Below are positions 19,237 to 25,208 of a stretch of DNA of 64,000 nucleotides, piece after piece. Position numbers and translations under genes: made by a program. Source of the DNA: Candidatus Altimarinota bacterium (lineage in GTDB: Bacteria; Patescibacteriota; Gracilibacteria; BD1-5; UBA2023); contig JAQTWP010000002.1 of NCBI GenBank assembly GCA_028689205.1, positions 1-64,000 on the forward strand, in the 5' to 3' direction. Every line of letters begins with the position of its first letter. Position 1 is the stretch's first letter. The notes under the pieces are model-generated. The model was not told the origin of the DNA. It saw nothing but the letters and a program-made list of their open reading frames with translations, and ran no database searches.

Positions 19237-20646
19237 TTATTTTTTAGCTTTTTTCCAATTATCTCAGACTCAGATTTCTACAAGCAGTTTTGCTTCAAAT
19301 GGTACTACATTTTCCATAATTTCTTTGATTTTTTCTTCAAGGAATAATTCATCTTTATATAATTCGAAAACTAGTTCATCATGAACTTGAAGTATCATTT
19401 TTGACTTGTAATTTCAAGTATTTAATAACTTATCAATTTGTATCATCGCAAGCTTAATTACATCGGCTGCAGTTCATTGGATTGGCATATTAACAGCTTC
19501 CCTTTCTGCCTGTCATTTGATAATTCTATTCGCATCATTGAGATTATTTATATATCTTCTTCTTCAGAAAAAAGTTTCAACGTAACCATTCTCTCTTGCT
19601 TTAACTAATAATTCTTCATTATATTTTTTCACTCAAGAATAAAGTTCATAGAATTTGTCTATATAAATTCCTGCTTCAGCTGGTCAGATGCCAATTTGTT
19701 TAGAAAGTCCAAATCCTGATATTCAATATATTACTCAAAAATTAACAGTCTTTGCTCTTCTTCTTTCTTCTGAAGTAATTTCTTTGTCTCAGAAAAGGAA
19801 TTTGGCAGTACGAGTATGAATATCTTCTCAAGCCTTGAATGCATCAAGTAAAATTGGATCTTGACTAAGATTCGCAAGAACTCTAATCTCAACTTGTGAA
19901 TAATCTGCAACCATTATTTTATAATCTGGGGAAGATGAAATAAAACATGATTTGATTTCTTCGGCATATCAATTCCCTGCTGGAATATTCTGCAAGTTCG
20001 GATTTTCAGAAGACATTCTTCAGGTAGAAGCTCAAGTCTGATTAAATGTTGTATGAATTTTCTTAGTATTCGGATTGAGAGTCTTTAGTAATCATTCAAC
20101 ATAAGTCGTTTGGAGTTTACGAAGTCCTCTATGTTCTAAGATAATACTTGCGATTGGATATTTTTGTCAGATATATTCTAGTGCTTCATTATCGACACTG
20201 AATCAAGTCTTGATTTTTTTAGTTGTAGGAATATTCAGTTTTTCAAAAAGAATAACTTGAAGTTGTTTCGGTGAATTAAGATTGAATTTTTCTCAAACCA
20301 AATCATAAATCTCCATTTCAAGACTCTTAATTCTTTCTTCGATTTCTACTCAGATTTCTTTTAATCTACCACTATCAATTTTGAATCAATTAAGCTCCAT
20401 TCTTGCTAAAACCATAAGCAATTTAGCTTCCATGTCAAAAATGAATTCTTGCGAAGGAAAAGGTTTTTCTGAATCTATTTGCGCATATTTTTCCCAAGCA
20501 AAAAAAGCTTTTTCGGCTGACAGAATATCAGACTGCTCACTTACTACAAAATCATCAGAAAAATCAATGAAATCCTTAAAATCATTATTCTTGAATCTTG
20601 TAGAAAAGATATATTCTTTTAGTTTAATGTCGTATAATTTTGGCAT
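19237..20646 (-). CDS. polA: Minimal DNA polymerase I (polymerase domain only)
   Basis: A 469-residue family A polymerase. Motif A is ADYSQVEIRVLA (catalytic D248), motif B/O-helix is RRRAKTVNFGVIYG, motif C is VHDEL (H422, D423). Usual Pol I has about 850-930 residues; here the 5' nuclease is absent and only about 100 residues precede the thumb, too few for a full 3'-5' exonuclease, whose DxE residues I do not see. It should fill gaps in repair and lagging-strand synthesis but cannot remove primers or proofread alone. Confidence 0.93.
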
Positions 20647-20672: not shown

Positions 20673-21362
20673 TTAAATAGTAGTTCAGTCCCATACTGGC
20701 ACTCATAGATAATTTCAAATAGTTTTTGCATTTGATTTAATTATATTAAGATTTCAGTGGTCTATAAGATTTATCCTACTTTTATCTTTTAAAACTAAAT
20801 TTAGTTCATAACTATAGTAACTTCCCATATTTCAATAAACGAACTCTGATAACAATTGGACGGCATAAATATTGTTCAGTGAAGTAATATTTTTATCATC
20901 AATATCAATCATTTCTAAATTCAGATTTAGTTTTCATTTATAGAAATATCCAATTTTTTTATCAAAAACTATAGGTTTACTGAAATTATTAAAAATAAAA
21001 AAATTTGTTCAAAAATAAAATAAAGTAAATACAAATAATGCAACTATTGTATTTAAATTTGTTTCCTTGGTAAAATAATTCAGAAACAATGTTAAGAATA
21101 AAATAAATGGTATTAAAGAAAAAACTATCAAAAATATTTTTGTCTGAAAAGAAGATTTTAATTCAAGATTTCAATTAGTATTTTTTGTTAATATATTTGT
21201 TATAAAATTAGTTCATCATATATTGAGGCGTTCCCAAGATATTTTCTTTGCAAATGGATCAGAAATATTAATAAAAGCTTTCTTTATTTTTTCTTGTTTA
21301 GATTTTGAAATATTACTTCAAATATCTTTTAAACTACTTTTAACTGAATTTAATAATCACAT
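20673..21362 (-). CDS. Membrane protein of unknown function
   Basis: A 229-residue protein with a basic helical N-terminus (1-60), two closely spaced membrane helices (about 75-130) and a C-terminal soluble part (about 135-229) with alternating strands. No family recognised. It lies between trpS and polA on the same strand, about 100 bases after trpS, and may be part of the same transcript. Confidence 0.6.
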
Positions 21363-21459: not shown

Positions 21460-22590
21460 TTATAAATATTCCTTTCAATAATCCAATAATCACATTGATT
21501 TTTTAAGGGTTTCAATTAATTTTTGTCATTCAATTCTAGCATTAGCCGATCATTTTTCAATAGAATTAACTACAATATCCATGTGTTTTAGATAATATTC
21601 CCTTCTTTCTCTTATTGGAGATATAAACTCTTCAAGAACATTAATTAGGAGTTTTTTTATTTCTCAATCTCAAACGGAATTTGGTCATCATTCAATATAT
21701 CTTTTTTTAAGTTCATCTAAATGTGTTTTATCCTTATAAAAAATATCTAAATATAAAAATGCAACATGTTTGGAAATATTTCATTTTGATTCAATGCTTG
21801 TTTTACCGGGATCAGTATACATTTTATTAACTTGGCTCGTGATTTCTTTTAATGTAGAAGTTAGATAAATAGTATTTCCTAGACTTTTACTCATTTTATC
21901 ATTTCCATCAATTCAAACCAATCTAGGAAATTCGGAAACTAATGCTTTTGGTATAGGAAAATTCGTAGAGTACATAGTATTTACTTTTTTTATAACTTTT
22001 CTTGATAATTCAATATGTGGAATTTGGTCTTCTCAAACAGGAACTATTTCTCAACCGAGAAGCATAATGTCTGCAACCTGACTAACAGGATAATTAATAA
22101 AACCAAGTGATATAGAATTACTTTCAGTTTCTCATCTTTTTTCTATTTTTTTCATTTCATCCTTAAGTGTTGGATTATTTGTAGCAAGCGAGTACGGTAC
22201 GAACATTGTTAAATAATTGAAAAGTTCTGCAAATTCTGGCACATAACTTTGAACAATAAAATTACTTTTATTAGGATCAAGTCATACGGCAAGCCAATCA
22301 ATTACCATATCAATAACCGAGTTTCTAAGTTTTTCAGTTTCTCCGAGATGGTCTCAAAGAACTTGATAATCTGCAATTAAAAAATTAGTTTTAATATTTG
22401 AAGTTTCTTGTAATTGAATCCAGTTACTAAGGGCTCAAACATAATGTCATAAATGAAGTCTTCAGCTAGGTCTAGCTCAGGTAAGACAAGTAAGAGTTTT
22501 ATTAGAATCTATATTTTTTAAATTTTCAATACCCCTTATAATATGTGGCATTTCTCAAGTTGGTTTCACTCAAGTTATTGTTTTTTTCAT
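21460..22590 (-). CDS. trpS: Tryptophanyl-tRNA synthetase with N-terminal repeat-like extension
   Basis: A 376-residue class I enzyme charging tRNA-Trp: ARPSGRLHLGHY (HIGH at 46-49), GGEIVPVGEDQ and DKMSKSLGN (KMSKS 232-236) are all present. TrpRS is normally about 330 residues. The extra N-terminus contains GVKPTGEMPHI, itself similar to the usual start of TrpRS (GxxPTGxxHLGN), so the first motif appears duplicated with a degenerate HIGH. The gene lies third in a transcript headed by two Trp-Trp leader peptides, which implies control by charged tRNA-Trp. Confidence 0.94.
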
Positions 22591-22648: not shown

Positions 22649-23452
22649 TTAGTTTTTATTTATTTGTTTACGTTCATCTAAAAAATGCATAAATTCATGA
22701 CTTGCATATTTCATAGTAACTCAAGAGTGTCATGTTCATTTATATTCTTTGTATATGAAATCTCAGCTATTATTAAGTGTTTTTAATTTATTATAAAAAT
22801 CCTTGGATCTACTATAATTTATGCTTTCGTCTTCTGTTCAATGTGCAATAAATACGCTTGTATTATTTAGGTATTTGATGTTTTTGATTGGAGTAAATAA
22901 AGTCAAATCTCTGAAATAATCCTTAAAAGATTTTGATTTGATTCAGTTATATAAATTAGTATATCATCTATCGATTACATTATAAAAATCATCAACCGAT
23001 TCTTCTGGTTTTCATATTTTTCAAAGATTAGAAAACTCAAGTGCTGGGTAAAATAGTCATATTTCATTTATGCTTTTATCAAATCTTGGTAAAACAGAAA
23101 CCAATGATCATCAGAAGCTAAGACCAAGAAAAGAAATTCTTCAGTATTTATAAAATTTTTCTTCTCAAGAAGATACATTGATTCAATTGCTTCAAGAGAA
23201 ATATTTCTTAGAATCTATTAGTGTATTTATACAACTTTTAGGTGAGAATTTTCAACCACTCCTGCAGAATCAATAATAATCCGGTACAAAAACATCATAT
23301 CCATACATATTTAAGATGTCTACATTCCTTAAGTTGTCCACATCTTTTAGATTAGGTATTCCTATAGCAACAATTATAAGATCTTTTGAAACTATATTGC
23401 TTTTATAAAAAGTACCGACTAGATTGTAGAATTTAAGAATTTCTGTTTTCAT
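22649..23452 (-). CDS. Alpha/beta hydrolase in the trpS operon
   Basis: A 267-residue dienelactone-hydrolase-like protein: nucleophile elbow GLSFGG near residue 112, an HGTEDESI acid-loop and GTGHSG for the catalytic His. Contains no tryptophan. The gap to the upstream gene is 7 bases and to trpS 58 bases. Substrate unknown; the shared leader region suggests a role linked to tryptophan supply, which is inference. Confidence 0.75.
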
Positions 23453-23459
23453 TTTAAAG

Positions 23460-24239
23460 TTAAGTTAAAGAATTAATATCGACTCTCACGAAGAGATTGT
23501 TTTCGTTTAGTTTGTATTTTCAATCAGTGAAAAGATTGTTTTTTGGTGAGGTTGTTTCTGTATTTACAAAAATCTTGTCAGTAAAATTATGAGTCAAAAA
23601 TTGATTTGTTTCTAAATAGTTCTTAATCAGATAATATCACTTTTCATATCAAAAATTAGTAATAATTACCTGTAGAGAATTAGAAAAAGAGTTAATATCT
23701 AATCAATAATCAGCTAATAAAAGATTTATATCTTTAATAGTAAAAGTTTTTTTGACTACTTGTGATTGTTTTATGGGAATTCAAATTGAAGAAAATGTTT
23801 CAATTAAAAAATCTCAGTCTATAACTTCTGAGAGCTTTTGATTATAGAGATTAAGCATTCCTTCAACTTCACCTTTTAATTCAACTTCATCAATGTTTTC
23901 TTTGACTACCATTCATCTATCAGCAAGTAAAAAACGTATTTTCAGATTAAAAGTACTCTTCAAAAAATCCAAAACTATAAGAGACACTTCAAATTTTTTT
24001 TGATATTTTATTCAAACTGATTCAAAAGAATTATAGCTTCACTTAGGTAATCATTTATCACTATATAAAGGACAAAGTGTTATGAATATATCTCTTGCAT
24101 TTTCACTATTGCTTAGTGCATTTTTTACCTGACCTTTTGTAGAAAATCAGATATTTTTGATTAGCGGGTTGCTTTGTACAAGTCTTGTTTTTTGTGAATC
24201 CAGATTTCTATATCTTTTAGAAATATTAAGTGTTTGCAT
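23460..24239 (-). CDS. Unknown protein, first gene behind the Trp leader peptides
   Basis: A 259-residue cytoplasmic protein with no signal peptide or membrane helix. Notable segments are ITLCPLYSDKGLPKGSYNS (about 53-71) and FLLADRGMVVKEN. I do not recognise a family. It contains no tryptophan, so it can be made when Trp-tRNA is short. It begins about 22 bases after the second attenuator hairpin and is followed 7 bases later by the hydrolase gene. Confidence 0.65.
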
Positions 24240-24261: not shown

Positions 24262-24302
24262 AAAAAAACTGTTAGTCTACTATTTCTAGAGAGCTAACAG
24301 TT
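24262..24302 (-). terminator. Attenuator terminator 2
   Basis: AACTGTTAG, long loop, CTAACAGTT and a T7 tail, between leader peptide 2 and the first structural gene. The loop CTAGAAATAG can instead pair with CTATTTCTGG within leader peptide 2, a possible antiterminator. Confidence 0.7.
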
Positions 24303-24327
24303 AAAAAGTGTCTACGACAAAATTTAG

Positions 24328-24390
24328 CTATTTCCGCCAGAAATAGTCATATTCGTTTAGCCACCAGATTTTCTTATTATATATTTTCAT
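24328..24390 (-). CDS. Trp leader peptide 2
   Basis: A 20-residue ORF, MKIYNKKIWWLNEYDYFWRK, with tandem Trp codons 9-10 and a third at 18, ending in TAG. It lies between terminators 1 and 2. Its 3' part forms a hairpin CTATTTC/GAAATAG. Trp is the rarest residue here, so three in 20 is striking. I read it as a ribosome-mediated attenuator sensor. Confidence 0.7.
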   Translation of the reverse strand: MKIYNKKIWWLNEYDYFWRK

Positions 24391-24402
24391 AAAATTGAAA
24401 TT

Positions 24403-24435
24403 AAAAATACTACCAAGTTTTCACCTGATAGTATT
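24403..24435 (-). terminator. Attenuator terminator 1
   Basis: AATACTATC, 12-base loop, GGTAGTATT and a T-run. The 5' arm CTATCAGGTG is complementary to CATCTGATAG at the stop codon of leader peptide 1, giving a competing antiterminator. Confidence 0.75.
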
Positions 24436-24470
24436 GTTTTTTACTTAATTAAATTAGCACAACAAAAACT

Positions 24471-24515
24471 CTATCAGATGATATAAGTTGATGTCCACCA
24501 AATTTTATTTTTCAT
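24471..24515 (-). CDS. Trp leader peptide 1
   Basis: A 14-residue ORF, MKNKIWWTSTYIIG (last Gly TGA-coded), stop TAG at 24471-24473, with tandem Trp codons 6-7. It starts about 25 bases downstream of a consensus promoter. A ribosome stalled at the Trp codons would leave CATCTGATAG free to break terminator 1; one that reaches the stop would cover it. Confidence 0.75.
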
Positions 24516-24539
24516 AGTTTTTTTTATAAATCTGTAAGA

Positions 24540-24568
24540 AGTATAGTAATTTTATTCACAAAAGTCAA
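24540..24568 (-). promoter_or_regulatory. Promoter of the trpS operon
   Basis: Minus strand TTGACT (24568-24563), 17-bp spacer, TATACT (24545-24540), the best match to a sigma-70 promoter in the area, followed by the two leader peptides. Confidence 0.75.
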
Positions 24569-25033: not shown

Positions 25034-25081
25034 AAATAAAGTATAGATTGTAGTACACTCTACTAGAAAGGAGGTGATATC

Positions 25082-25138
25082 ATGAAATTCCAAAAAGTAA
25101 ATGAAACATGTCACTGCAAAGAGGGATGTACGCTCTAG
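25082..25138 (+). CDS. 18-residue Cys-rich peptide with consensus Shine-Dalgarno
   Basis: MKFQKVNETCHCKEGCTL, stop TAG. The upstream AGAAAGGAGGTGAT is complementary to the 16S rRNA 3' end over 14 bases, the strongest Shine-Dalgarno in the window. Downstream come a hairpin (GCTCAAAGC...GCTTTGAGC, 25137-25168) and a GC-rich terminator, so a short, stable transcript is likely. C-x-C-x3-C suggests metal binding or a modified peptide; function unknown. The only glycine is GGA. Confidence 0.5.
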   Translation: MKFQKVNETCHCKEGCTL

Positions 25139-25179
25139 CTCAAAGCTTTCTCCATTAAGGCTTTGAGCGAACACTAACC

Positions 25180-25208
25180 AAAAACCCCGGATAAAATCCG
25201 GGGTTTTT
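25180..25208 (+). terminator. Strong terminator after Cys-rich peptide
   Basis: AAAAACCCCGGAT, AAA loop, ATCCGGGGTTTTT; unusually GC-rich for this genome. Confidence 0.9.

Follow-up and report, generated by a model that had tools for sequence, protein, structure and literature searches.

We propose, with a probability of about 0.8, that two ribosome-mediated attenuators sensing Trp-tRNA are arranged in series and control an operon that contains the sole TrpRS gene of a CPR bacterium using genetic code 25. The genome of this bacterium, labelled G000, is the host of the window, by which we mean the whole 64,000-nt stretch of DNA that was analyzed. Series attenuation is supported by the rarity of a Trp-Trp (WW) pair combined with a terminator, by the location of both units before a trpS operon, by the lack of TrpR, trpA and trpB in searches of the genome, and by the lack of an Rfam match for the leader.

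Organization of the leader region

All leader, terminator and operon features are located on the minus strand, with the leaders and terminators lying within 24515-24267. The genes of G000 are read in code 25 (UGA = Gly), in agreement with a first-pass annotation that had assigned the DNA to a code-25 CPR bacterium. The order of transcription is promoter, leader 1, terminator 1, leader 2, terminator 2 and five genes, so that the arrangement described in that annotation, two short WW-bearing ORFs each followed by a terminator ahead of an operon with TrpRS, was recovered with every element on the same strand. The candidate promoter, TTGACT-17-TATACT (24540..24568, minus strand), would place the transcription start at about 24533. 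It had been called a consensus promoter, and it does match the consensus at 10 of 12 positions, but such sites are no more common than in shuffled sequence (37 found vs 40.7 expected); because its score is no better than that of shuffles, it is the position of the site that argues for the promoter.

In unit 1, the putative leader peptide MKNKIWWTSTYIIG (24471..24515, minus strand) has its Trp codons at 24500-24495, reads UGA as Gly and ends with UAG. A pause-type hairpin (1:2) covers the Trp codons (24454..24501, minus strand; -11.9 kcal/mol). The antiterminator strand UCAUCUGAUAG (24471..24481, minus strand) overlaps the leader 1 stop and forms 11 bp with 24431-24421, a partner contained in the 5' half of intrinsic terminator 1 (24406..24435, minus strand; 13 bp, -14.2 kcal/mol, U-rich tail). 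In unit 2, the putative leader peptide MKIYNKKIWWLNEYDYFWRK (24328..24390, minus strand) has Trp codons at 24366-24361 and a third at 24339-24337, and a pause-type hairpin again lies over the Trp codons (24307..24365, minus strand; -13.0 kcal/mol). Here the antiterminator strand ACUAUUUCUGG (24337..24347, minus strand) is inside the leader ORF; as 24347-24337 it takes in the third Trp codon and forms 11 bp with 24289-24279, which is held in intrinsic terminator 2 (24267..24302, minus strand; -13.8 kcal/mol, U-rich tail).

With RNA position 1 set at 24534, the Trp codons, stop and antiterminator of unit 1 are at 35-40, 62-64 and 54-64 (pairing with 104-114), and those of unit 2 are at 169-174, 205-207 and 188-198 (pairing with 246-256). 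Computation thus yields the parts, the alternative pairings and an equal geometry of the units, each having an 11-bp antiterminator whose start, counted from the first nucleotide of the second Trp codon, lies 16 nt downstream.

No SD sequence was found ahead of leader ORF 1. For background frequencies we used a G000 sample of 378,568 bp, consisting of the window and 20 further stretches of the same genome. Since an SD-like motif precedes just 12 of the 255 genes in this sample, its absence at the leaders is normal. Elsewhere in the window (25064-25207, plus strand), a full Shine-Dalgarno sequence, AGAAAGGAGGTGATATC, is followed by an 18-codon Cys-rich ORF, MKFQKVNETCHCKEGCTL, with two hairpins downstream, the second of which is a terminator (-17.6); this SD-ATG arrangement is unique in the genome, and SD-like motifs precede just those 12 of 255 genes.

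Genes of the operon and Trp metabolism

From 24267 to the end of the five-gene same-strand cluster, no minus-strand terminator was predicted. The first structural gene (23460..24239, minus strand) encodes a 259-aa orphan with no family, PDB match or viral-contig homologue, for which a search of 287 genomes of the phylum likewise gave no credible homologue; its single-sequence fold model was unusable (pLDDT 38). It is followed by an alpha/beta hydrolase gene (22649..23452, minus strand; 267 aa, family match PF00326) and by the TrpRS gene (21460..22590, minus strand), the only one found in G000, whose product has the Deinococcus TrpRS II as its nearest solved structure and a chimeric N-terminus. 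Next come a gene for a 229-aa protein without assigned function (20673..21362, minus strand), before which there is no terminator, and the last gene of the cluster, which by inspection is of the DNA polymerase I C-terminal type (19237..20646, minus strand). This polA C-terminal-type gene lies two genes past TrpRS; in the relative G066, a polA N-terminal-type gene, also recognized by inspection, comes after the TrpRS II gene (L036 7147-8592).

The first two structural genes encode no Trp, a feature that had been taken as suited to expression when Trp-tRNA is low. This argument did not hold, as 21 of 55 genes of 230-300 aa here are Trp-free. By contrast, the statement that no trp biosynthetic gene is seen was strengthened by a genome-wide search, in which neither trpA nor trpB was found in G000. 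The bacterium, which has a tiny genome, appears unable to make tryptophan.

The TrpRS of G000 begins with MKKTITGVKPTGEMPHIIRGIE, the standard TrpRS of the family-mate G020 with MKKIITGIKPTGEQPHIGN, while ...NTPHVIRGIED is found in the type II enzymes of relatives. Over its first 17 residues (22590-22540, minus strand) the G000 enzyme resembles the standard Gracilibacteria enzyme, and this segment is joined at PHI to a type II body. This combination of a standard-type start with a type II body suggests that a type II TrpRS replaced the native gene in place.

Folding and proposed switch logic

The first-pass annotation had named folding of the leader as a check. The 296-nt leader folds far better than its dinucleotide shuffles (z = -4.76; 0 of 200 shuffles as good), and competing pairings are present in both units. 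When a Trp codon occupies the A site, the ribosome covers about 12 nt, counted from the first base of that codon; this footprint was assumed in our folding model, in which the RNA covered by the ribosome and all RNA upstream of it were removed. When a stall at the WW pair was simulated, the antiterminator had a probability of 1.0 in both units for as long as the final bases of the terminator stem had yet to emerge. With the ribosome at the stop codon, most or all of the antiterminator strand was covered and the terminator had a probability of 1.0, again in both units. The prediction that a WW stall would allow antitermination and a ribosome at the stop would block it is thereby reproduced in silico. 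For unit 2 an alternative pairing had been proposed and its logic called less clear: with the 11-bp pairing of 24347-24337 with 24289-24279, the logic is the same as in unit 1. At equilibrium with the ribosome stalled and the whole terminator out, the terminator predominated, with probabilities of about 0.7-0.9 in unit 1 and 0.96-0.99 in unit 2. Since the terminator is the more stable end state of the full-length RNA, the antitermination switch is predicted to be kinetic.

We suppose that, when Trp-tRNA is low, a ribosome would stall at the WW pair and leave the downstream antiterminator strand free to pair with the 5' half of the terminator as it emerges, so that the polymerase would continue. 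When Trp-tRNA is ample, the ribosome would reach the stop and cover the antiterminator strand, and the terminator would form. If a leader is not translated, the pause-type hairpins could shield the antiterminator strand, leading to termination by default. As the polymerase has to pass both units, full expression would require a stall in each leader, and the effects of the two units should multiply; such stacking might give the operon a steep control, which would be its benefit. A ribosome that has moved past the WW pair of unit 2 and stalls at the third Trp codon would favor termination, and the location of this codon inside the antiterminator strand implies that unit 2 may need harder starvation.

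It is unlikely that Trp attenuation operates in a single unit and that the other is a leftover or a partial terminator acting constitutively, although the pairing of unit 1 is statistically the stronger, unit 2 reverts to its terminator more completely at equilibrium and its antiterminator strand contains a Trp codon. Against this, unit 2 retains the WW pair, the stop, the terminator, the 11-bp antiterminator and the 16-nt spacing, all of which would be expected to drift without selection. We favor two working attenuators.

Rarity of the arrangement

Strong hairpin terminators are frequent in the window, and the co-occurrence of terminators with WW leaders was evaluated in the G000 sample. WW occurs in 15 of 9,873 mini-ORFs, and there are 468 mini-ORF/terminator pairs; the two features are combined in three cases, two of which are units 1 and 2, where about 0.7 would be expected if they were independent. 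Given this expectation, two such units within 150 nt before a trpS operon are not plausibly due to chance. In this sample, few terminators stand just ahead of a gene on their own strand, and apart from the two described here none of them comes with a WW leader. The leader-like pattern ATGAAA-N(0-18)-AARATHTGGTGG (K-I-W-W) matches G000 at exactly two sites, the two leaders; it has six matches outside G000 among the 77 genomes of the order, and the four that were read out were all non-leaders.

The complementarity between the strand at the leader 1 stop and the 5' arm of the terminator, pointed out in the first-pass annotation, extends over 11 bp, and only 1 of 5000 dinucleotide shuffles equalled the pairing of the exposed leader with the terminator 5' half. 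Unit 2 stands out less: the corresponding number was 15 of 5000, and a second count gave 61 of 5000. Among 409 mini-ORF/terminator pairs of the G000 sample, unit 1 ranked 2 and unit 2 ranked 36, in a control where the terminator half of unit 2 ended before the end of the partner.

These figures also bear on whether the terminators answer another signal, such as an undescribed RNA or protein ligand, with the WW codons incidental. No conservation of the leader ORFs was seen among the relatives searched (77 genomes, none of the same genus) and the folding is strong by itself, as such a signal would allow; with WW in 15 of 9,873 mini-ORFs, however, two successive cases before a trpS operon are very unlikely, and we consider this reading highly improbable. 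An Rfam search of the leader gave no regulatory RNA match, and hence no recognized T-box. The leader is also unlike a TRAP site, its 295 nt containing just nine scattered (G/U)AG triplets vs about 11 regularly spaced ones. TrpR (PF01371), present in 29 of the 77 genomes of the order, was not found in G000, whose assembly is 94% complete, which speaks against a TrpR-controlled operon.

Lower still we place the idea that the short ORFs encode functional peptides, or that the terminated RNAs act in trans, with attenuation in cis secondary. There is a precedent in Sinorhizobium, whose peTrpL shows that a trp leader peptide is able to act in trans (PMC7298713); nothing in G000 points to a target, and control in cis accounts for the antiterminator geometry.

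TrpRS II and its neighbors in relatives

Conservation was searched through TrpRS in the 77 genomes of the order, none of which belongs to the same genus as G000, and by one scan of genome contigs. Most genomes of the order have a standard-type TrpRS; the G000 type was found at 59-75% identity in seven of the 77 (G004, G024, G027, G048, G065, G066 and G072). No WW leader with a terminator precedes trpS in the relatives examined, and the other Gracilibacteria loci examined gave no case of a terminator combined with a WW or WxW mini-ORF. A WW mini-ORF before trpS in G075 was dismissed as it sits inside a gene, and terminators before seven standard trpS genes belong after the upstream genes and lack a WW leader.

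In four of the seven relatives (G004, G048, G027 and G024), a TrpR gene lies within about 2.5 kb of TrpRS II, at a distance of 84 nt in G048 and in two copies in G024. AstE/AspA-type hydrolases are encoded near TrpRS II in G024, G048 and G072. Together, TrpRS II, TrpR and these hydrolases may constitute a Trp salvage regulon in the relatives (L032, L034, L061, L008). In G048, TrpRS II is also flanked by genes for EPSP synthase and chorismate synthase (both by inspection) and a TrpG-like class I glutamine amidotransferase (PF00117) (L034 394-2840, 11681-12277), neighbors that are unusual in a CPR genome.

A broader scenario, to which we give slightly less than even odds, is that the tandem of attenuators for one signal, the first to be observed in CPR bacteria, arose in the lineage of G000 to make a TrpRS II gene gained by lateral transfer, and often near TrpR in relatives, responsive to Trp, and would serve as a multiplicative starvation switch for the sole essential synthetase of a Trp auxotroph.

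Comparison with known attenuators

The E. coli trpL leader, a single unit controlling biosynthesis, comprises Trp-Trp codons, a pause-type hairpin, an antiterminator and a terminator. The G000 units share all of these parts, in a genome where neither trpA nor trpB was found. Some Gram-positive trp genes have tandem T-box leaders, in which the RNA binds tRNA directly; they sense the charging of tRNA-Trp serially, as the G000 units would, but the G000 leader has no Rfam T-box match. The trpS attenuators of Streptomyces are, to our knowledge, single units. Ribosome-mediated attenuation has been predicted for trpS2 of S. avermitilis (PMC1262725), and attenuation of an auxiliary antibiotic-resistant TrpRS gene in Streptomyces is reported in the title of Vecchione and Sello 2010, as cited in PMC4787780. 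As far as these sources describe them, the Streptomyces systems resemble that of G000 in combining a TrpRS gene, a leader with Trp codons and alternative hairpins in a ribosome-mediated mechanism, and they serve an auxiliary TrpRS beside a housekeeping trpS in GC-rich actinobacteria. Unlike them, the G000 system is a tandem before the sole TrpRS gene, heads a five-gene cluster and belongs to an AT-rich CPR bacterium with code 25. The tandem attenuators of Salmonella mgtCBR, which sense ATP and Pro-tRNA, are presented as a singular example (PMC3641672). They resemble the G000 arrangement in that a single leader mRNA carries a pair of translated ORFs, as we infer for G000; mgtCBR responds to two different signals, whereas both G000 units should sense Trp-tRNA. 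Our literature search, of incomplete coverage, found no report of leader-peptide attenuation in CPR bacteria. The mechanism is thus already known, and what appear to be new are the tandem for a single signal, the CPR host with code 25 and the TrpR-less context.

CPR bacteria are regarded as poor in regulation and as relying on neighbors for amino acids. With its sole TrpRS under a doubled codon-level sensor, as proposed, G000 would closely track the charging of Trp-tRNA, and leader-peptide attenuation would work where few genes have SD-like sites and UGA encodes glycine. With two leaders and one signal, the operon would be a clean natural system in which to see if attenuators in series make a response sharper.
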